Part shown: positions 380 to 9,185 of the stretch, in pieces
Layout of the letters: every line of letters begins with the position of its first letter
How positions within the stretch are numbered: the first letter of the stretch is position 1
Source: Gemmatimonadota bacterium
GTDB taxonomy: Bacteria > 4572-55 > J002
Direction: 5' to 3'
Length of the DNA: 11,219 bases
Assembly: GCA_003697105.1 (NCBI GenBank)
Contig: RFFQ01000156.1
Location: 1-11,219 of the forward strand
Notes under the pieces: generated by a model
The model's database searches: none
What the model saw: only the letters and a program-made list of their open reading frames with translations
What the model was told of the DNA's origin: nothing
Program-made: the position numbers and the translations under genes

Positions 380-407
380 TTGACAAACTCAATTTTATAT
401 TTATATT
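380..407 (+). promoter_or_regulatory. sigma70-type promoter of arsR and the ars operon
   Basis: A perfect -35 box TTGACA (380-385) is followed after 16 bp by TATATT (402-407). The -10 box overlaps the left arm of the 27-bp inverted repeat. Transcription would start within the candidate ArsR operator, the usual geometry for steric repression by ArsR/SmtB proteins. It lies about 30 bp before the arsR start codon and is the most convincing promoter in the island. Confidence 0.7.
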
Positions 408-423
408 TCGCCATATAACGAAA
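397..423 (+). promoter_or_regulatory. Candidate ArsR operator 1 (left arm of the 27-bp inverted repeat)
   Basis: Positions 406-423 form an imperfect dyad, TTTCG-CC-ATAT-AA-CGAAA, of the size and type bound by dimeric ArsR/SmtB repressors. The whole 27-bp stretch recurs exactly, in reverse complement, at 796-822 just before arsM. The dyad directly abuts the arsR -10 box. Being both palindromic and duplicated at two gene starts makes a regulatory role likely; binding by this ArsR is inferred. Confidence 0.65.
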
Positions 424-437
424 CAAAGAGGTAACCC

Positions 438-779
438 ATGCGGCACATAACAAAACTTTTTAAAGCCCTTTCCGACCCCAATCGGTTGCGGATTTTAAAG
501 ATGCTGGAGACAAAACCCCTTTGTGTGTGCGAGATCACAACGGTGTTGAATCTGGCACCATCGACGGTTTCCAAACATCTTTCCATCTTGCGAGATACCG
601 GCTTGATTACCGATGAGAAAGACGGAAAATGGGTGAACTATTCTCTGACAACCAACCCCACCGATGCCTATGTGGCGGAAATACTGCCATTGATCCGCCA
701 TTGGCTGAATGAGGATGACACCATCCGGCAAGATCGATCCCACGCGGCTGGCGCAGACCGCATGATGATTTGTTGCTAA
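438..779 (+). CDS. arsR: ArsR/SmtB-family arsenic-responsive repressor
   Basis: Dimeric winged-helix repressor that should release operator DNA when As(III) or a trivalent organoarsenical binds its cysteines, derepressing the ars operon. The 113-residue protein shows the family core: FKALSDPNRLRIL at about residues 8-20, the metalloid motif LCVCEI with C29 and C31, and the recognition helix STVSKHLSILRDTGLI at about 42-57, followed by the wing. The classical E. coli ArsR site uses three Cys (C32, C34, C37); here the third is absent, but the protein ends in a Cys-Cys pair (C112, C113) that could complete or replace the site. The start is supported by AGAGGT at 427-432. It is the first gene after the promoter at 380-407 and is bracketed by two identical candidate operators, so autoregulation is expected. 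Confidence 0.9.
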   Translation: MRHITKLFKALSDPNRLRILKMLETKPLCVCEITTVLNLAPSTVSKHLSILRDTGLITDEKDGKWVNYSLTTNPTDAYVAEILPLIRHWLNEDDTIRQDRSHAAGADRMMICC

Positions 780-795
780 TTTTTTTATCTTTTCA

Positions 796-822
796 TTTCG
801 TTATATGGCGAAATATAAATAT
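796..822 (+). promoter_or_regulatory. Candidate ArsR operator 2 with possible arsM promoter (right arm of the inverted repeat)
   Basis: This is an exact reverse-complement copy of 397-423; its dyad TTTCG-TT-ATAT-GG-CGAAA occupies 796-813. A TATAAA box at 814-819 follows directly and could be a -10 for arsM, with only a weak -35 (TTTCAT, 791-796, 17-bp spacing). An operator here would let ArsR separately control arsM and the downstream genes. An open frame beginning at 805 starts inside the operator and lacks a ribosome binding site, so it is not the arsM start. Confidence 0.6.
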
Positions 823-852
823 GTTATGGGTACGTTGAGGAGGGATTTTCTC

Positions 853-1641
853 ATGCCGAATTCGGTTCAACTCAAGCAGATTGTCAAAGAAAAATATGCC
901 CGCATTGCCGCTACATCCACCTCCTGCGGTTGCGGTTGCAGTGCTTCCGATAGCGATCCTCTTAATATGAGTGAAGATTACTCGCATCTGGAAGGCTACA
1001 CCATAGATGCCGATTTAGGCTTAGGGTGCGGCATACCGGCTAAATTTGCCAATATCAACACGGGTGATGTGGTTCTCGATCTCGGCTCAGGGGCAGGTAA
1101 TGATGTCTTTGTGGCGCGAGCACTTGTTGGCGAAGCTGGATATGTCATTGGTATAGATATGACCCCTGAGATGATCGATAAAGCGAATCGACATAATACC
1201 AAGTTGGGATACCAAAATGTGGTGTTCCGGCTAGGGGATATTGAAAACCTGCCGGTAGAAGACAACCGTGTGGATGTGATAATTAGCAACTGTGTGCTAA
1301 ACCTCGTTCCAAATAAGCGCCGCGCTTTTGCCGAAATGTTCCGGGTGCTAAAACCGGGGGGTCATTTTTGTGTATCCGATATTGTCACATCGGGTGACCT
1401 GCCGCCCCGCTTAAAAAAAAGCGCGGAAATGTACGCCGGTTGTGTCGCGGGTGCGGTTCAAAAAGAGGTGTACCAGCAACTGATAACGGAAGCGGGTTTC
1501 ACTCAGGTAGAGATCAAAGAAGAACGCCGTATCCCCCTCGACCCGGGTATGTTAAAGGAACTTTTGACCGGTCCAGAGCTTCTTGATTTTCAACACGGGA
1601 AAAACGGCATTTACAGCATCACCGTGTACGGAATGAAATGA
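853..1641 (+). CDS. arsM: Arsenite S-adenosylmethionine methyltransferase ArsM
   Basis: Cytosolic enzyme that methylates As(III) stepwise with S-adenosylmethionine to mono-, di- and trimethylated arsenicals. I choose the ATG at 853 (262 aa), preceded by GAGGAGGGA, over the in-frame ATG at 805, which lies inside the operator repeat. Class I methyltransferase motif I is VLDLGSGAGND (about 74-84), the acidic residue ending strand 2 is in GIDMTPEMI (100-108), and the later KPGG loop is at about 167-170. The arsenic-binding cysteines known in the family are all recognisable: C59 in LGLGCGIP, C147 in SNCVLNLVP and C197 in AGCVAGA. An additional CGCGC cluster lies at residues 25-29. It follows arsR by about 70 bp and precedes an ArsP-type permease that could remove its trivalent methylated products. 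Confidence 0.93.
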   Translation: MPNSVQLKQIVKEKYARIAATSTSCGCGCSASDSDPLNMSEDYSHLEGYTIDADLGLGCGIPAKFANINTGDVVLDLGSGAGNDVFVARALVGEAGYVIGIDMTPEMIDKANRHNTKLGYQNVVFRLGDIENLPVEDNRVDVIISNCVLNLVPNKRRAFAEMFRVLKPGGHFCVSDIVTSGDLPPRLKKSAEMYAGCVAGAVQKEVYQQLITEAGFTQVEIKEERRIPLDPGMLKELLTGPELLDFQHGKNGIYSITVYGMK

Positions 1642-1730
1642 GAAGAAAATCAACTCCGTGCTAAGAAGCCCATGGGGGGACTCGGCGTATTTTAAGTCAC
1701 GTGTGTTCGGATAAATGGGAGACGGTACCG

Positions 1731-3032
1731 ATGGATTGGAAAGACGAAATAAAGCCTCTTTTTTGGCTACTGGTAATTTTCGGTCTGGCGTATTTCATGC
1801 CGGTCGGGCAGAATCGCTTTGATCAAGCAATTTTGGAAGCCTTTGCGTTAACCAAATGGTACGCTCGTGAGCATGTTCTACTCTGTTTAGTCCCCGCATT
1901 TTTTATTGCCGGGGTGATTTCTGTGTTTGTCAGTCAAGCCGCGGTCATCAAGTATTTTGGGGCAGGCACAAAAAAGTGGCTCTCGTATGCGGTTGCCTCG
2001 ATTTCAGGGACGGTATTAGCGGTCTGTTCGTGTACCATTTTACCGCTGTTTGCCGGGATTTATAAACGGGGCGCTGGGATTGGTCCTGCCACCGCTTTTT
2101 TGTATTCCGGACCGGCGATCAACATTTTGGCGATCATCCTCACCGCGCGAATTTTGGGCGCAGAGTTAGGTATTGCCCGTGTAGTGGGTGCGGTATTGTT
2201 CAGCGTGATTATCGGCTTATTGATGCACTTGATCTACCTCAAAGAAGAGCAAACGAAAGCCGCTTTACAAGCCACCATGCCCGAACCGGAAGAATCACGC
2301 CCGCTATGGCAGACCACGTTCCACTTTTTTGTGCTGGTGGCGATTTTGGTGTTCGCCAACTGGGGTAAGCCCGCCAGTGAAAGCGGCTTATGGGCATTTC
2401 TCTACCAGAATAAGTGGAGCATCACGGCGGGGTTTAGCCTCTTGCTGATGTTCTCGCTGACATTTATTCTGCGGATCAACGGGTTACACGTAATTTTGGG
2501 AGGAATCCCTGTCATTATTGGGGTGATGTTGTACCCGCAGCAGCCATTGATTCCGTTTGTGATGGGGACAATCAGTCTCAGCGTGCTGTTATCAATCCAT
2601 GAAGGTGAACCGGCGGAATGGATGGACGCTACATGGGGATATACCAAGCAGATTATGCCGTTACTGGCGGCAGGTGTGCTAGCCGCCGGATTTTTGCTGG
2701 GTTCACCGGAAGGCGGGCAAGGTGTTATTCCTAATGAATGGGTAGCGAATTTGGTCGGGGGAAACTCTTTTTTTGCTAACTTTTTTGCCTCAATCGTTGG
2801 GGCATTTATGTATTTCGCCACGCTAACGGAAGTACCGATTGTGCAAGGGTTGATTAATAGTGGGATGGGCAAAGGTCCGGCGCTGGCGTTGTTACTGGCG
2901 GGCCCGGCACTCTCTCTGCCCAACATGTTAGTCATTCGTAGCGTGATCGGTACGCAAAAAACAATCATTTTTGTCACGTTGGTGGTGGTCATGGCAACGA
3001 TTAGTGGAATGGCTTTTGGCGCCTTTAGCTAA
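1731..3032 (+). CDS. arsP: ArsP-type permease (PF03773-like), probable methylarsenite/organoarsenical efflux
   Basis: Polytopic inner-membrane permease of the ArsP/YraQ (DUF318) family; characterised ArsP proteins export trivalent methylated and aromatic arsenicals. The ATG at 1731 (433 aa) is preferred because GGGAG lies 9 bp upstream; an in-frame GTG at 1701 has no good site. Hydrophobic segments run the whole length in two halves. The first half holds the family signature AVCSCTILPLFAG (C99 and C101, candidate metalloid ligands) followed by GPATAFLYSGPAINI. The second half repeats the pattern in TEVPIVQGLINSGMGKGPALALLLAGPALSLPN, written here as one motif region near residues 380-410. Position directly after arsM supports export of methylated arsenic. 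Some relatives act on other metals, so the substrate is inferred from context. Confidence 0.8.
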   Translation: MDWKDEIKPLFWLLVIFGLAYFMPVGQNRFDQAILEAFALTKWYAREHVLLCLVPAFFIAGVISVFVSQAAVIKYFGAGTKKWLSYAVASISGTVLAVCSCTILPLFAGIYKRGAGIGPATAFLYSGPAINILAIILTARILGAELGIARVVGAVLFSVIIGLLMHLIYLKEEQTKAALQATMPEPEESRPLWQTTFHFFVLVAILVFANWGKPASESGLWAFLYQNKWSITAGFSLLLMFSLTFILRINGLHVILGGIPVIIGVMLYPQQPLIPFVMGTISLSVLLSIHEGEPAEWMDATWGYTKQIMPLLAAGVLAAGFLLGSPEGGQGVIPNEWVANLVGGNSFFANFFASIVGAFMYFATLTEVPIVQGLINSGMGKGPALALLLAGPALSLPNMLVIRSVIGTQKTIIFVTLVVVMATISGMAFGAFS

Positions 3033-3056
3033 TCGACCTGAATAGGAGGTGTTAGC

Positions 3057-3812
3057 ATGTTATATCCCCTAATTTTTGCTATCATTTTCATCGCTTCATT
3101 TTTATTCGCCATGCTGGGATTGGGTGGCGGCATGGTCTATGTGCCTGTGCTCAAATGGGCCGGATTTTCGGTCAAGGAAGTTGCCATTCCACTGGGTTTA
3201 CTGCTCAATGGTCTCAACACCTTGCTGGCTCTGATCCCCTTTGCCCGCAAGAAGTTAGTGGACTGGAAAGGCGGTTCGGCCATGGCAATAGCAGCTTTGG
3301 TCTGTGCCCCAATTGGCGCTTATACCGCGCAATTTGTACCGGTTAAGCAATTGCTGATTCTGTTTTCCATCGCTGTGCTCGTTGCCGCCTTTCGGATGCT
3401 TCTTTTTTCCCGCAACCCGGAGCCGGAGGCGATGATGTCACTGGCCAAAAGGTCGGCTATCGGCGCCGGCGTGGGCGCTCTGGCCGGGTTTGCCGGCGGA
3501 CTGCTGGGCATCGGCGGCGGCTTCATCATCGCCCCGATCCTGATGTGGATGGGCTACAAGACTAAAAAAGCGGCGGCGACAACGGCGTATGTGGTAACGT
3601 TCTCGTCTTTTTCCGGCTACCTGGGCCACATGGCGGAAGGTCATTTCAACTGGCCGCTGACCATCGGCGTGGTCATTGCGGTCATCGCCGGCTCGCAGTT
3701 GGGCGGCTCGTTTATGTCCACCAAAGCGAATCCCAAATGGGTGAAGCGAATTTACGCGGTCGTGCTGCTGGCGATTGCGATCAAACTCATATGGGGTGTT
3801 ATTGCATCCTGA
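3057..3812 (+). CDS. TauE/SafE (TSUP) family membrane exporter
   Basis: 251-residue integral membrane protein of the TauE/SafE family (PF01925-like), whose studied members move sulfite, sulfoacetate or other small sulfur-containing anions. The sequence is a chain of hydrophobic helices with the duplicated glycine-rich signature: LGLGGGMVYVPVL at about residues 20-32 and LLGIGGGFIIAPIL at about 149-162, followed by the AATTAYVVTFSS helix. The length is normal for the family, and the start has a near-perfect AGGAGGT (3044-3050). In this operon it might export a sulfur or arsenic-sulfur species, but that is speculation. Base composition shifts within the gene: the first third resembles arsP and arsM, while the part after about 3400 is much richer in G+C, like the next genes. 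Confidence 0.82.
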   Translation: MLYPLIFAIIFIASFLFAMLGLGGGMVYVPVLKWAGFSVKEVAIPLGLLLNGLNTLLALIPFARKKLVDWKGGSAMAIAALVCAPIGAYTAQFVPVKQLLILFSIAVLVAAFRMLLFSRNPEPEAMMSLAKRSAIGAGVGALAGFAGGLLGIGGGFIIAPILMWMGYKTKKAAATTAYVVTFSSFSGYLGHMAEGHFNWPLTIGVVIAVIAGSQLGGSFMSTKANPKWVKRIYAVVLLAIAIKLIWGVIAS

Positions 3813-3864
3813 TTATCAGCATCTCACCAAAATTTAAAAACCTTCAACATAAGGAGAAGTAGAA

Positions 3865-4467
3865 ATGATGAATCCAGAAGACTGGCTCGAATTCGGACAG
3901 AAATTTCACGGGCACAAATGCCCGGCCATGCCGATGGGTCTGCGGGTCGCGGCGGCGGCCATGAATGCCCTCGGTGTTGAACGCACCGGTGACAGCGCTA
4001 TCCTGGCCCTGCTGGATCTGGGCGAAGACCACTGCGCCACCTGTTTTGCTGACGGCGTGCAGGTCATCAGCGGCTGCACGATGGGCAAGGGCAACATCAA
4101 AAAGACGCACAAGGGCAAGTGGGCGTTGACCCTAATCGACAAGAAGACGAAAAAGGCCGTGCGGGTGACACCCAAAGCTGAGGCCATGCTGGCCAACAAG
4201 AAAACCTCGTTCTTCAAAGACTACCGGGAAAAAGGCGTGCCGCCCACCAAAGTGCCGGACGATGTGGTGCAGCCGCTGGTGGAAAAGGTCATGGGTGCCC
4301 CGGACGACATGCTTTTAAATATCTCTGAAGTTTTTGACGTTGATTACCAGGATCCGCCGCATAGCTTTGCCAGTTTTGTCTGCGAGGAATGCGGCGAAAT
4401 GGTGGTGGAACAATACGGCCGGATCAAGGGCGACCATAAAGTGTGTATCGACTGCGCAGCAAAATAG
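3865..4467 (+). CDS. FmdE-domain protein with C-terminal zinc ribbon, function unknown
   Basis: 200-residue soluble protein resembling subunit E of molybdenum formylmethanofuran dehydrogenase (FmdE family, PF02663-like), found in many anaerobes without the enzyme itself. The N-terminal FHGHKCPAMPMGLR (H15, H17, C19) and DHCATCFADGVQVISGC (H56, C57, C60, C71) supply the metal-binding His/Cys set of the family. A four-cysteine ribbon closes the protein: C173-x2-C176 and C194-x2-C197. AGGAGA (3852-3857) supports the first of two adjacent ATG codons. The reaction is not known. Family members bind zinc, and here the gene sits between a TSUP exporter and a metal exporter inside an arsenic operon, so a metal- or metalloid-handling or thiol role is possible. 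Codon use is strongly C/G-ending, unlike arsR, arsM and the genes after 5700. Confidence 0.8.
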   Translation: MMNPEDWLEFGQKFHGHKCPAMPMGLRVAAAAMNALGVERTGDSAILALLDLGEDHCATCFADGVQVISGCTMGKGNIKKTHKGKWALTLIDKKTKKAVRVTPKAEAMLANKKTSFFKDYREKGVPPTKVPDDVVQPLVEKVMGAPDDMLLNISEVFDVDYQDPPHSFASFVCEECGEMVVEQYGRIKGDHKVCIDCAAK

Positions 4468-4480
4468 ATTTATTACCCAA

Positions 4481-4509
4481 CCCTGTCAGCGTTTAAAACG
4501 CTGACAGGG
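4481..4509. repeat. Perfect hairpin between the FmdE-like and CDF genes
   Basis: CCCTGTCAGCG (4481-4491) and its exact reverse complement CGCTGACAGGG (4499-4509) enclose TTTAAAA, which can add three A/T pairs. No T-run follows on either strand, so it is a poor intrinsic terminator. It may stabilise or process the operon mRNA, lower expression of downstream genes, or be one copy of a dispersed palindromic (REP-like) element. It occupies almost the entire gap before the CDF gene. Confidence 0.7.
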
Positions 4510-4528
4510 ATATAAAAAGGAAAATGCC

Positions 4529-5440
4529 ATGAGCCACAATCCTCATCACCATACGCCGGTATCGGGTTGGCGGCTGCTGGTCACCATGCTGCTTAATTTC
4601 GCTATCACCATTGCAGAGATTATCGGCGGGATCATGTCCGGCAGTCTGTCACTGATTTCGGACGCGCTGCACAATTTCAGCGACGGCCTGTCCATCGTTA
4701 TCAGCTATGCTGCCCTGCGTCTGGCCGGGCGACCGTTTTCCCAACGCCATACCTTTGGGTTAAAGCGGGCGGAAATATTTGCGGCGGTCATCAACGCTAC
4801 CGTGCTGGTGATGATTTCGTTGTATCTGTTTTACGAGGCCGTCCTGCGATGGCTTCACCCGGAGCCGGTGCATGGTCAGTTAATGACGATTGTGGCTCTC
4901 ATCGGGCTGACTGCCAACGTGGTCGGCGTTCTCCTGCTGAAAAAGGATTCGGCGGGCAGCCTTAACATCAAATCAGCTTATTTGCATCTGCTCAGCGACG
5001 CGGTGTCTTCGGTCGGGGTCATCCTGGGCGGTTTGGCGATTTATTGGTGGGATGTTTTTTGGCTGGACCCGCTGTTGACGATCCTGATTGGGGTGTATAT
5101 CATCAAAGAGAGTTTGGCGATTCTGCGGGAGGCTTTTCATGTGCTGATGGAAGGCGCCCCTCTGCATATCACGCTGGAAAAGGTAAAAACGGCTGTCGAA
5201 GCACTGAAAGACGTCAACGATATTCACCATGTGCATGCGTGGACTGTTGGCGAAAATGACGCTCATTTAGAAGCCCACATCAATATTGTGGACATGCCGG
5301 TGAGCGAAACGACCGTTCTGCGGCAAAGAATTAGCTCGATCCTGCATGATCAATTTGGCATTGAACATGTCACCCTGCAATTTGAATGTAACCAATGCCC
5401 GAATGTGGGATTGATCCATTCGGGTCATCATCATTCTTAA
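4529..5440 (+). CDS. Cation diffusion facilitator (CzcD/ZitB-like) divalent metal exporter
   Basis: 303-residue CDF-family antiporter, expected to export Zn2+, Cd2+ or Co2+ across the inner membrane in exchange for protons. The N-terminus is histidine-rich (SHNPHHH). The substrate site shows the HxxxD pairs of Zn/Cd-type CDFs: H48-D52 in DALHNFSD (second transmembrane segment) and H153-D157 in HLLSD (fifth). Six membrane segments precede a cytosolic C-terminal domain containing HVHAWTVGENDAHLEAHI, as in CzcD and ZitB. The tail ends in a Cys/His-rich stretch (ECNQC, then HSGHHHS) that may bind metal. An AAGGA site precedes the ATG. Location in the arsenic operon suggests co-resistance to a second metal; the specific ion cannot be read from sequence alone. 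Confidence 0.88.
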   Translation: MSHNPHHHTPVSGWRLLVTMLLNFAITIAEIIGGIMSGSLSLISDALHNFSDGLSIVISYAALRLAGRPFSQRHTFGLKRAEIFAAVINATVLVMISLYLFYEAVLRWLHPEPVHGQLMTIVALIGLTANVVGVLLLKKDSAGSLNIKSAYLHLLSDAVSSVGVILGGLAIYWWDVFWLDPLLTILIGVYIIKESLAILREAFHVLMEGAPLHITLEKVKTAVEALKDVNDIHHVHAWTVGENDAHLEAHINIVDMPVSETTVLRQRISSILHDQFGIEHVTLQFECNQCPNVGLIHSGHHHS

Positions 5441-5463
5441 CTCGTTAAAAAAGGAGTCTGACA

Positions 5464-5700
5464 ATGGAAGTCAAAATCCTGGGCACGGGCTGCCCCAAAT
5501 GCCAAAAACTAGCTCAAATGGTCACCGACGTGGCCAAGAAGAACAACATCACCATCGACATGGAAAAAGTTACCGAGATTGACGACATCATGGCCTACAA
5601 TATCATGATGACGCCGGGTCTGGTGATCAATGGCGAAGTGAAAAGCGCGGGCAAACTGCCCAAAAACGACCAAATCCTGACCTGGCTCAAGGAGGGGTAA
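5464..5700 (+). CDS. Mini-thioredoxin, redox-active disulfide protein 2 type (CPKC)
   Basis: 78-residue cytosolic thioredoxin/glutaredoxin-fold protein (Thioredoxin_3, PF13192-like). The strand-loop VKILGTGCPKC places the redox pair at C10 and C13, and the cis-proline loop is MTPGLVING with P51; KLPKNDQILTWL forms the last helix. There is no signal peptide. The start has AGGAG at 5452-5456. Such small thioredoxins often lie next to ArsP-type permeases. Here it could reduce ArsC (which needs a thioredoxin), the membrane CcdA homologue, or cysteines of the permease; this is inferred from position. The next gene starts on the base after its stop, and that gene's ribosome binding site (AAGGAGG) lies inside this reading frame, so the two are translationally linked. 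Confidence 0.88.
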   Translation: MEVKILGTGCPKCQKLAQMVTDVAKKNNITIDMEKVTEIDDIMAYNIMMTPGLVINGEVKSAGKLPKNDQILTWLKEG

Positions 5701-6201
5701 ATGTATCGTTATATTTCAGCCTTTTTGATGCTGTTGCTTGTTTTCGGTTTAGCCTGTAGCCAGACCGACCACACTGAATCACAACAGAAAGTGGATACGG
5801 CCCAACCATCAACGGTCAAGGAAGCCGTTTCCGAAGCGCCGGTAACTCAATCCGACACGACCGCCGTTGTTGACAGCACGGGCGCGGCAGTAACTAAAAC
5901 CATCGCAATGATCACCTTCATCGAACTCGGATCGGTGAATTGCATACCGTGCAAAAAAATGCAGCCGGTGATGAAATCCATCGAGAAAAAGTATGCCGGT
6001 CAGGTGGAAGTGATTTTTTACGATGTTTGGAAGGAGCCGGAACGGGGAAAAGAATTTGGCATTAAGATGATTCCAACCCAGGTATTTTTGGATCCGGAAG
6101 GTACGGAACTCTTGCGGCATCAGGGATTCTTCCCGGAAGAACAGATTGATGAATTTTTGCAATCCAAAGGCTTAAAAGTCGTGGAGGTACCTTCCACATG
6201 A
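5701..6201 (+). CDS. Putative thioredoxin-fold lipoprotein (CIPC)
   Basis: 166-residue exported thioredoxin. Residues 1-19 form a type II-like signal (YRYISAFLMLLLVFGLAC), with C19 as probable lipidated cysteine; the lipobox GLAC is not a perfect consensus. A low-complexity linker rich in T, V, Q, S and D (about 20-67) leads to a thioredoxin domain with the redox motif NCIPCKKMQP (C81, C84) and the cis-proline loop MIPTQVFLDPEG (P125). This layout fits a membrane-anchored periplasmic reductase. Its stop overlaps the start of the CcdA-like gene by ATGA, so the two are probably translationally coupled and the CcdA protein is the natural electron donor (inference). The substrate is unknown. Confidence 0.83.
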   Translation: MYRYISAFLMLLLVFGLACSQTDHTESQQKVDTAQPSTVKEAVSEAPVTQSDTTAVVDSTGAAVTKTIAMITFIELGSVNCIPCKKMQPVMKSIEKKYAGQVEVIFYDVWKEPERGKEFGIKMIPTQVFLDPEGTELLRHQGFFPEEQIDEFLQSKGLKVVEVPST

Positions 6202-6899
6202 TTATGGACTGGTTTTCTCGGCTGACCCTAGCGATGGAGGGCAGTTTTGGTTTGGCGTGGGTTGCCGCATTTATCTGGGGCATATTGAGCATTTTGCTCA
6301 GCCCTTGCCACCTGTCGAGTATCCCATTGGTGATTGGCTTTATCAATACACAAGGCAAGATCACGCTCAAGCGCACCTTCACCTTATCGCTGATGTTTTC
6401 CATCGGGATTTTAATTACCATTGCCGGCATCGGCGTGATCACGGCGTTGATGGGACGAATGCTGGGTGATATTGGGCGCTGGGGCAACATCGTGGTTGCA
6501 GGTGTCTTTTTTGTGATAGGTTTGTATTTGTTGGATGTTATAAAATTGGAGTGGAGTAGTTTTGCTCCTACCACCACCCAGTTACGCGGTATTCCGGCGG
6601 CGGTTGTTCTGGGTTTGCTCTTCGGGGTCGGCTTGGGTCCTTGTACCTTTGCCTACATGGCACCGGTGTTGGGTGTGGTGTTTCAACTCGCTTCTACGGA
6701 GATTATCAAAGCCATCTTGTTATTATTTGCTTTTGGTATTGGACACTGTGCGGTGATCGTCCTGGCTGGGACATTAACAAAATGGGTACAATCTTATCTG
6801 AATTGGTCGGAAGAATCTACGGTAACCATCTGGATCAAGCGCATTTGCGGCATACTGGTGATATTCGGAGGCGTATATCTGATTTATACCACAAGTTAA
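6198..6899 (+). CDS. CcdA/DsbD-type transmembrane thiol electron transporter
   Basis: 233-residue membrane protein of the CcdA family (DsbD membrane domain, PF02683-like), which passes electrons from cytosolic thioredoxin to periplasmic thiol proteins. The two redox cysteines are in the expected pseudo-symmetric places: C37 in LLSPCHLSSIPLV and C149 in GLGPCTFAYMAPVL. About six hydrophobic helices are visible. The gene overlaps the preceding lipoprotein gene by ATGA; a second ATG at 6204 is possible but less well supported. In most bacteria CcdA serves cytochrome c maturation; here there are no heme-handling genes nearby, and it is surrounded by three thioredoxin-like genes, so it more likely powers the exported thioredoxins of this operon. 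Confidence 0.88.
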   Translation: MIMDWFSRLTLAMEGSFGLAWVAAFIWGILSILLSPCHLSSIPLVIGFINTQGKITLKRTFTLSLMFSIGILITIAGIGVITALMGRMLGDIGRWGNIVVAGVFFVIGLYLLDVIKLEWSSFAPTTTQLRGIPAAVVLGLLFGVGLGPCTFAYMAPVLGVVFQLASTEIIKAILLLFAFGIGHCAVIVLAGTLTKWVQSYLNWSEESTVTIWIKRICGILVIFGGVYLIYTTS

Positions 6900-6911
6900 A
6901 TGAGGTGAACG

Positions 6912-7580
6912 ATGACACGGATACTAATGTTATGGATAGGGTTGTTGGGGAGCGTCACGTTAGGTTTCGCGACGGAATCCCCCCTAATCCCTTTGCGGGA
7001 TCAATTGGGACAGATTCAAGTCTCATTAGCTATGAACAAGATACCGGAAAAACATCAAATCCTAACACTAAGCACGTATATTGACCAATTAACGGCGGAT
7101 GATCTATCACAATGGGCGGTATGTGATCATCCCAAGTCCGAATTAGATGCGTTTCAAACGGTATTTGAGTCATTTCGCGAGATGTACCAGACGCACTCTT
7201 CGGCAGATACGCTTTTAAGTGCATTTAAACCGGTCACTCAATCCTATAACCGTTTATTTGGGCGCCATTTGCATAATCAGATCAAAACGGCCGAAAAACC
7301 GAAAATTATCCTCTTTTCGACCTCCGTTTCGTGCGAATGTACGCTGAAAGCGGCGGCTGAAAATGAGGTAGCCGTCCAGAAATTTTACCAAGATTATCCC
7401 CACATTGCCGATTATGTCATTATTGATGCCTTTTATGAAACAGCATTACGCGATACCTACCAAATCCATTTTTTACCGGTGGCGGTTGTTTTAGATCGTG
7501 ACGGGACCGAAATGGAACGATATGTTGTGGAAGATTTTTTGTATCCAGAACTTGAAGTCTTACTCACATCCACCCCATAA
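6912..7580 (+). CDS. Exported thioredoxin-like protein with CxC motif
   Basis: 222-residue protein I do not recognise as a named family. Residues 1-20 look like a Sec signal peptide (RILMLWIGLLGSVTLGFA). Residues about 25-125 are mostly helical with one cysteine, C71. The C-terminal part, from about 130, resembles a thioredoxin fold: KIILFSTSVSCECTLKAA puts C141 and C143 where the CxxC of a thioredoxin would be, and HFLPVAVVLDRDGTEMERY matches the cis-proline strand (P189). A CxC pair in this place is unusual and may have different redox properties or bind a metal or metalloid. GAGGTG (6902-6907) supports the start. It lies 12 bp after the CcdA-like gene, whose product could keep it reduced, and just before arsC. 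Codon use is A/T-leaning, unlike 3400-5700. Confidence 0.75.
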   Translation: MTRILMLWIGLLGSVTLGFATESPLIPLRDQLGQIQVSLAMNKIPEKHQILTLSTYIDQLTADDLSQWAVCDHPKSELDAFQTVFESFREMYQTHSSADTLLSAFKPVTQSYNRLFGRHLHNQIKTAEKPKIILFSTSVSCECTLKAAAENEVAVQKFYQDYPHIADYVIIDAFYETALRDTYQIHFLPVAVVLDRDGTEMERYVVEDFLYPELEVLLTSTP

Positions 7581-7597
7581 TCAGAGAGGTTTAAAAC

Positions 7598-8044
7598 ATG
7601 ATAGAACCCCCCTTGCGCATCCTTATTTTGTGTACGGGCAATTCGTGCCGTAGCCAGATGGCAGAGGGATTTTTACGCTCATTTGATAACCGGTTAGCTG
7701 TTTTTTCCGCGGGCACCGCTCCCGCCGTGCGGGTTCACCCCAAAGCGGTGCAAGTGATGCAGGAAGCCGGGATCGATTTGAGTAAACACTATCCCAAAAC
7801 GGTCAATTCGTTTATCGATCAGGCATTTGATTATGTGATCACGGTTTGCGGGCATGCGCAGGAGACTTGCCCAGTGTTTACCGGACAGGTCAAACAGCGG
7901 TTACACATCGGATTTGATGATCCGGCAACAGCGACCGGTACTGAAGAAGAAATATTGGCGGTTTTCCGCCGGGTTCGGGATGAAATTCAAGATCAATTTT
8001 TCCATTTTTATACAAACCATATCACATCCAAAAAGGGAAGTTGA
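7598..8044 (+). CDS. arsC: Arsenate reductase, low-molecular-weight phosphatase type, thioredoxin-coupled
   Basis: 148-residue cytosolic enzyme that reduces As(V) to As(III). The phosphatase-like loop is [14 protein letters not shown] with catalytic C12, C17 and R18. The two shuttle cysteines of the Staphylococcus pI258 ArsC mechanism are present as C84 and C91 in VCGHAQETC, so the enzyme disulfide should be recycled by thioredoxin and not by glutaredoxin. The catalytic aspartate is D108 in GFDDPA. AGAGGT (7585-7590) supports the ATG. One base separates its stop from the acr3 start, so reduction and export are tightly co-expressed. The mini-thioredoxin gene earlier in the operon is a plausible dedicated reductant. 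Length is slightly above the pI258 type (about 131 aa). Confidence 0.95.
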
Positions 8045-8045
8045 G

Positions 8046-9110
8046 ATGAGTGCATTAACAAAAAAGCTATCCATTGTCGACCGGTATCTCACGTTATGGA
8101 TTTTCCTGACAATGTTTGTGGCGGTTAGCATTGGCTATTTTGTGCCCGCCATTGCTCAGTTTTGGGACACCTTTAAGGTCGGCACGACGAACATTCCGAT
8201 TGCTATCGGTTTAATCTTGATGATGTATCCACCCCTTGCCAAAGTGAAGTACGAGGAATTACCGGTGGTGTTTCGCAATGTTCGCTTGTTGGTCTTATCA
8301 CTGATTCAAAACTGGATTGTTGGACCCTTTGTCATGTTCTTTCTGGCAATTCTCTTTCTGCCGGACAAACCGGAAATGATGGTCGGGGTGATTCTAGTGG
8401 GATTAGCCCGGTGCATTGCCATGGTGCTGGTATGGAACGATCTGGCAAAAGGCGATAGCGAGCTTGCGGCGGGATTGGTCGCTTTTAACGCCATTTTTCA
8501 GGTCTTCTTGTACTCGGTTTATGCCTATATCTTCATTACGGTGTTGCCGCCGTTGTTTGGCTTAAAAGGTGCCATCGTGAAAGTTTCCATTGGTGAGATT
8601 GCCATAACGGTCTTAATTTATCTGGGTATCCCGTTCGTTGCTGGGATGCTCACCCGCGCGATTCTGGTGAACGTGAAAGATAAGGATTGGTATCACCAGC
8701 AATTTATTCCCAAATTATCCCTAGTTACTCCGGTGGCATTGCTGTTTACGATCTTTGTCATGTTTTCCCTGAAGGGTGACTCCATTGTCAAGCTCCCGTT
8801 AGATGTGATTCGAGTCGCCATTCCCTATACGGCTTATTTTGCGGTGATGTTTTTTATAACCTTTTTTGCCGCGAAAAAGATTGGCGCCAACTATGCGCAA
8901 ACCACTACCGTTTCCTTCACGGCGGGTAGTAACGATTTTGAGCTGGCGATTGCCGTTGCCGTGGCAGTTTTTGGCATTAACTCTCCGGCGGCATTTGCCA
9001 CAGTCATTGGACCGTTGGTTGAAGTGCCCGTACTGATTATGCTGGTCAATGTGGCGCTTTGGTTTCAGCGGAAATGGGTTGGCGGCACAAATACCACCAA
9101 CACACACTAA
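8046..9110 (+). CDS. acr3: Arsenite efflux permease Acr3
   Basis: 354-residue inner-membrane protein of the Acr3 (bile/arsenite/riboflavin transporter) family, which exports arsenite using the proton-motive force. Ten or so membrane helices are visible. The family hallmark [19 protein letters not shown] places the essential cysteine at C123, and [13 protein letters not shown] and [17 protein letters not shown] (E326) match conserved late helices, including the functionally important glutamate. The ATG at 8046 directly follows the arsC stop and has AAGGGAAG upstream inside arsC; the open frame extends back to 7854, but that extension overlaps the well-supported end of arsC and is not membrane-like. 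This is the last gene of the island; a long hairpin follows. Confidence 0.95.
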
Positions 9111-9136: not shown

Positions 9137-9185
9137 AGTGGAACGGCAATCCGATCTTACATTAAAACGGGGTTGCCGTTCCACT
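9137..9185. terminator. Long hairpin after acr3, possible operon end or dispersed repeat
   Basis: AGTGGAACGGCAA (9137-9149) pairs perfectly with TTGCCGTTCCACT (9173-9185). TCC (9150-9152) and GGG (9170-9172) extend the stem with one G-T wobble, leaving a 17-base loop. The stem would stop or stabilise transcripts at the end of the ars operon, but no clean T-run follows, so it is not a textbook intrinsic terminator. Its large symmetric form would also fit a small dispersed palindromic element. Confidence 0.5.

Follow-up and report, generated by a model that had tools for sequence, protein, structure and literature searches.

The stretch of DNA analysed here, referred to as the window, is 11,219 nucleotides in length and carries an ars gene cluster. 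The arsR gene, which encodes one 113-residue ArsR/SmtB repressor, is located between the two arms of a long inverted repeat (Table 1). Behind the right arm, profile searches identified an arsenite methyltransferase gene (arsM) and then further ars genes. The long cluster past arsM covers positions 1701–9110; by profile matches it contains an ArsP-type permease, a TauE/SafE exporter, an FmdE-like protein, an ArsE-like thioredoxin, a DsbD-like/ArsG-like membrane protein and ArsC, and by eye we also named one CDF-like exporter and one Acr3-like carrier. One 222-residue frame (6912–7580), located between the DsbD-like gene and arsC, has no Pfam or NCBIfam match. A close-spaced inverted repeat, with 23-nt arms matching at 83% and only 3 nt apart, is present at 9137–9185, just past the Acr3-like gene; it is a possible terminator.

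Table 1. Genes, repeat arms and predicted control elements around arsR
Feature	Position	Strand	Basis
-35 box TTGACA, arsR promoter	380..385	+	Promoter scan; match peak at the homologous place in relatives
Left arm, exact 27-bp inverted repeat	397..423	+	Sequence comparison
-10 box TATATT, arsR promoter, overlapping O1	402..407	+	Promoter scan; left-flank TATA in relatives
Predicted operator O1, 26 bp, 12-2-12 geometry (core dyad 406-423)	402..427	+	Core within 1 mismatch upstream of arsR in relatives
Ribosome-binding site AGAGG of arsR	427..431	+	Sequence
arsR, 113-aa ArsR/SmtB repressor, CVC (C29, C31) and C-terminal C112	438..779	+	Profile matches; cysteine conservation
T7 tract directly past the arsR stop	780..786	+	T tracts here associated with O2 in relatives
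Weak -35-like TTTTCA, putative arsM promoter; O2 occupies the 18-bp spacer	790..795	+	Sequence; location partly dictated by the ArsR half-site
Predicted operator O2, 26 bp (core dyad 796-813), 16 nt past the arsR stop	792..817	+	Second dyad within 2 mismatches in relatives
Right arm, exact 27-bp inverted repeat	796..822	+	Sequence comparison
-10-like TATAAA, putative arsM promoter	814..819	+	Right-flank TAT at O2 versus O1 in relatives; TATAAT match peak here
arsM ribosome-binding site GAGGAGGG	837..844	+	Sequence
arsM, arsenite methyltransferase, start likely ATG 853, not 805	853..1641	+	NF008823, 324 bits (cut-off 263); start by ribosome-binding site and frame

As the initial annotation had described, arsR is bracketed by a perfect 27-bp inverted repeat, each arm of which contains the same 18-bp dyad. 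The left arm, ATATTTATATTTCGCCATATAACGAAA, is the exact reverse complement of the right arm over all 27 bp; separated by 372 nt, the two form the longest inverted pair of the whole window. The extended repeat has 38-nt arms (397–434 and 785–822) of 89% identity, with 350 nt in between. The common dyad, TTTCGCCATATAACGAAA, is of the form TTTCG-N8-CGAAA with an inner ATAT. In the 4.18-Mb genome, the dyad with the ATAT centre is present only at 406–423 and 796–813, and the control pattern, read backwards, has no occurrence. Being both the longest pair of the window and unique to two sites of the genome, the inverted repeat with its ATAT dyad is beyond chance. The looser dyad, with any N8, is at chance level and not specific, counting eight sites genome-wide compared to seven for the control, and at these counts no regulon beyond ars was seen in the genome. 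Searches of a plasmid collection and of distant DNA with positions 380–900 gave no match, and neither did an Rfam search. The initial annotation also used the repeat to explain why two open frames start with MAKYKY; this holds for the frame 805–1641, whereas in the minus-strand frame 199–453 these residues are internal. Because of the GAGGAGGG ribosome-binding site and the frame, ATG 853 is a more likely start for arsM than ATG 805.

Loci of ArsR relatives were compared in two sets. For set 1, 56 loci were fetched, and the best 51 of 56 were scanned together with the window; window included, 51 upstream and 50 downstream stretches could be scored. The named loci of this set are labelled Calditrichota, Neomarinimicrobiota, Ignavibacteria and other Bacteroidota, KSB1, Verrucomicrobia and others. 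Set 1 was fetched partly with the peptide KHLSILRD, and helix conservation in this set is therefore biased. Set 2 contains 64 further loci from other genomes of several phyla, which were not fetched by peptide pattern. Two genomes of the window's own phylum were found, and the other one has no close arsR.

When the dyad was searched for in these related genomes, as the initial annotation had suggested, it was found upstream of arsR in both sets. Within one mismatch, it is present in 46/51 stretches of set 1 (38 exact), compared to ∼5 (5.0) in shuffled sequences even at a two-mismatch cut, and in 41/64 loci of set 2, compared to 0.5 expected; the relatives are non-independent samples, and fewer separate events underlie these counts, and those given below, than the figures suggest. 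The upstream consensus, TATATTTCG-N8-CGAAATGA, fits a 12-2-12 ArsR/SmtB site. In set 2, the upstream dyad accompanies the recognition-helix core SKHLS: it is present in 33 of the 38 loci with this core and in 8 of the 26 without it (p = 1e-5, for a grouping chosen post hoc).

The repressor is a member of the ArsR winged helix-turn-helix family, with scores of 65.8 bits against Pfam HTH_5 (cut-off 22) and 95.9 bits against NCBIfam HTH_metalloreg (cut-off 55). Among the first-set relatives, C29 and C31 (within LCVCE) are invariant and C112 is conserved in 96%. This cysteine set, a CVC near residue 30 plus one C-terminal cysteine, is different from the sites listed in PMC4562236, which are C32/C34/C37 in R773, C95/C96/C102 in A. 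ferrooxidans and C15/C16/C55 in C. glutamicum.

The arsR promoter, TTGACA-16-TATATT at 380–407, was the only call of the promoter scanner near the two arms; it is overlapped by the left arm, which agrees with the earlier placement of the left copy on the arsR -10 box and start. In the relatives, TTGACA matches peak at offset -27 from the dyad, 17 bp before the left-flank TATA, and a left-flank TATA occupies the -10 position at 21/45 upstream dyads in set 1 and 21/41 in set 2. Lying over the TATATT box, O1 has the layout of an ArsR/SmtB operator, a 12-2-12 imperfect inverted repeat, and this geometry is kept in the relatives. According to PMC7994332 and PMC8790569, ArsR/SmtB operators in general are of the same geometry and position. 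In Pseudomonas putida KT2440, as described in PMC7994332, an imperfect palindrome over the arsR -10 box is bound by ArsR1 and ArsR2 and released by arsenite; like that palindrome, O1 is placed on the arsR -10 box, as judged here from sequence. Taken together, these observations indicate that the ArsR encoded between the arms almost certainly has this dyad as its operator.

A second dyad, within two mismatches, was found past the arsR stop in 26/50 stretches of set 1, compared to ∼5 (5.1) expected, mostly 10–20 nt from the stop; in set 2, it was found in 14/63, compared to 2.5 expected, mostly 16–21 nt from the stop. O2 sites are more degenerate than those at O1, and at the two-mismatch cut none was found in roughly half to three quarters of the relatives. 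In most relatives arsR is followed by ars genes on the same strand, and the gene behind O2 matches the ArsC, ArsP, Acr3, ArsM, ArsE-like or FmdE protein of the window in 21/23 loci. The recurrence in both sets supports the earlier claim of two operators, one predicted at the promoter of arsR and the other ahead of the following gene. Because the second dyad recurs at the same place across phyla, a one-off duplication was set aside: the predicted twin operator is a recurrent layout across distantly related bacteria. The recent duplication considered in the initial annotation thus fails as the origin of the second operator, although the exact 27-bp identity does look recent. We propose that this ArsR clade either inherited the twin layout from its ancestor or acquired it several times.

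Directly behind the second dyad lies the TATAAA element. A TAT on the right flank is much more frequent at O2 than at O1, with 15/23 versus 4/45 in set 1 (p = 2e-6) and 4/14 versus 1/41 in set 2 (p = 0.01). Together with the TATA on the left of O1, this bears out the earlier remark that the two copies have a -10-like element on opposite sides. The right-flank TAT is located where the -10 box of the next gene would fall, which supports a second ArsR-controlled promoter. The putative arsM promoter is far from consensus, and the apparent conservation of the -35 region at O2 partly reflects the ArsR half-site. The lack of a good -35 box at O2 would also suit a promoterless operator, at which bound ArsR acts as a roadblock to read-through from the arsR promoter, keeping arsR low and the downstream genes off. 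The fixed short distance of O2 past the arsR stop and intergenic gaps short enough for a single operon fit this as well; however, a TAT right behind the dyad is specific to O2 sites, which is the behaviour expected of a -10 box, and repression at O1 would already act on the same transcript. We consider a roadblock unlikely.

Several features of the segment between arsR and O2 were also recorded. The T tract past the arsR stop is longer in loci with a second dyad (p = 4e-5). A terminator at this tract was considered and rejected: the hairpin of the window is about as stable as those of shuffles (-9.0 versus -8.1) and is not adjacent to the T run. Among the relatives, hairpins are present in a few, and no consistent terminator hairpin was found. 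The RNA fold of 740–870 is ordinary (z = 0.48).

With two sites in cis, ArsR might bridge O1 and O2 and form a repression loop around arsR, as the initial annotation had suggested; such a loop would measure ∼390 bp. ArsR/SmtB repressors are generally dimers and are not known to bridge sites. The spacing between the two sites is 381–407 bp and weakly phased (Rayleigh p ∼0.05); however, it is mostly fixed by the length of arsR, which confounds the phasing. AzuR, moreover, is a dimer in solution (PMC8790569). Beyond this weak hint from phasing, looping is not supported, and we regard it as very improbable. That the arms are the borders of an arsR cassette able to invert or move, as 27-bp perfect ends flanking one gene might suggest, is hardly credible, given that these ends are operator sequence kept across phyla, that the ars genes lie behind arsR on the same strand in most relatives, that the dyad has no further copy in the genome, that the 27-mer is absent from viral contigs, that no recombinase was present among the window proteins scanned, and that neither terminal repeats at other loci nor inverted cargo were seen.

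The recurrent layout of the family leaves the mirror identity of the arms to be accounted for. Aligning O1 with the reverse complement of O2 gives a longest exact run of 27 bp in the window and of 15 bp in the next best relative, and runs between different loci do not exceed 14 bp. If sites were drawn independently from their own family profiles, the chance of 27 identical columns would be ∼3e-7 per pair, a value that serves as a guide only, since neither lineage nor local composition enters into it and the repeat was the reason for choosing this locus. In view of these runs and this estimate, operator constraint probably explains the dyads but not the full 27-bp identity. Strict inverted orientation is suggested by set 1 (16:7, sign-flip p = 0.03), but as a family rule it was not replicated in the independent set 2 (7:7, p = 0.70). 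Co-variation of the operators within a locus gave p = 0.02 in set 1 and p = 0.14 in the pooled data, and was dropped. The perfect mirror may be a later event; our guess, which is plausible, is that one operator was recently copied onto the other, most simply by template switching between the inverted copies.

We thus favour the explanation that the two arms are two ArsR operators, serving separate promoters for arsR and for arsM onward, and that a copying event came later; on the sequence evidence, we judge this whole explanation to be probable. Dimeric ArsR would bind O1, thereby covering the -10 box and start of the arsR promoter, and would also bind O2, between the weak -35 element and the TATAAA of a second promoter that serves arsM and the genes further on. 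Both promoters would be shut as long as arsenite is absent. Binding of trivalent arsenic at C29, C31 and probably C112 would release ArsR and open both promoters. One repressor would then govern two outputs separately, its own production and the detoxification genes. More tentatively, and with greater doubt than confidence, this cross-phylum ArsR clade might split the ars cluster into two independently repressed units by keeping the second operator-promoter in a fixed position right behind arsR, and inverted copying by template switching might keep the operators of this lineage identical; this would amount to gene conversion between operators and would maintain matched affinities.

Regulators with several sites are known from other systems. 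As predicted for ArsR here, CmtR of Mycobacterium tuberculosis, an ArsR/SmtB repressor, controls itself through multiple operators, as indicated by the title of Chauhan 2009 (cited in PMC5658604); different from ArsR, it is a Cd sensor. Synechocystis ArsR also has two sites (Lopez-Maury 2003, cited in PMC4585019), but these are located in one promoter-operator region. According to PMC4585019, they are ATCAA-N6-TTGAT sites at one promoter and none is upstream of arsM, whereas here a predicted site precedes arsM. Different from the window, P. putida KT2440 has one operator region per ars promoter, with half-site CATATTCG..., and the available part of PMC7994332 describes no second site past arsR. 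In the ars1 operon of Bacillus sp. CDB3, an inverted repeat is likewise located between ars genes; that repeat is a close-spaced RNA hairpin attenuator (PMC4562236), whereas here 372 nt separate the arms, each of which contains a DNA dyad. In the literature searched, with few subscription papers included, we found none that describes an additional operator immediately behind arsR. The arrangement is a variant of these known designs, in which the second operator directly behind arsR seems to be new.

The comparison defines a specific predicted operator for a widespread and apparently uncharacterised ArsR clade. For sensor designers, it offers a ready two-operator module, and the mirror-perfect pair is a test case for the homogenisation of inverted operators by template switching. 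The prediction is that separate ArsR-controlled promoters drive arsR and the downstream detoxification genes; if this is true, the cell could set its repressor level and its detoxification output separately.
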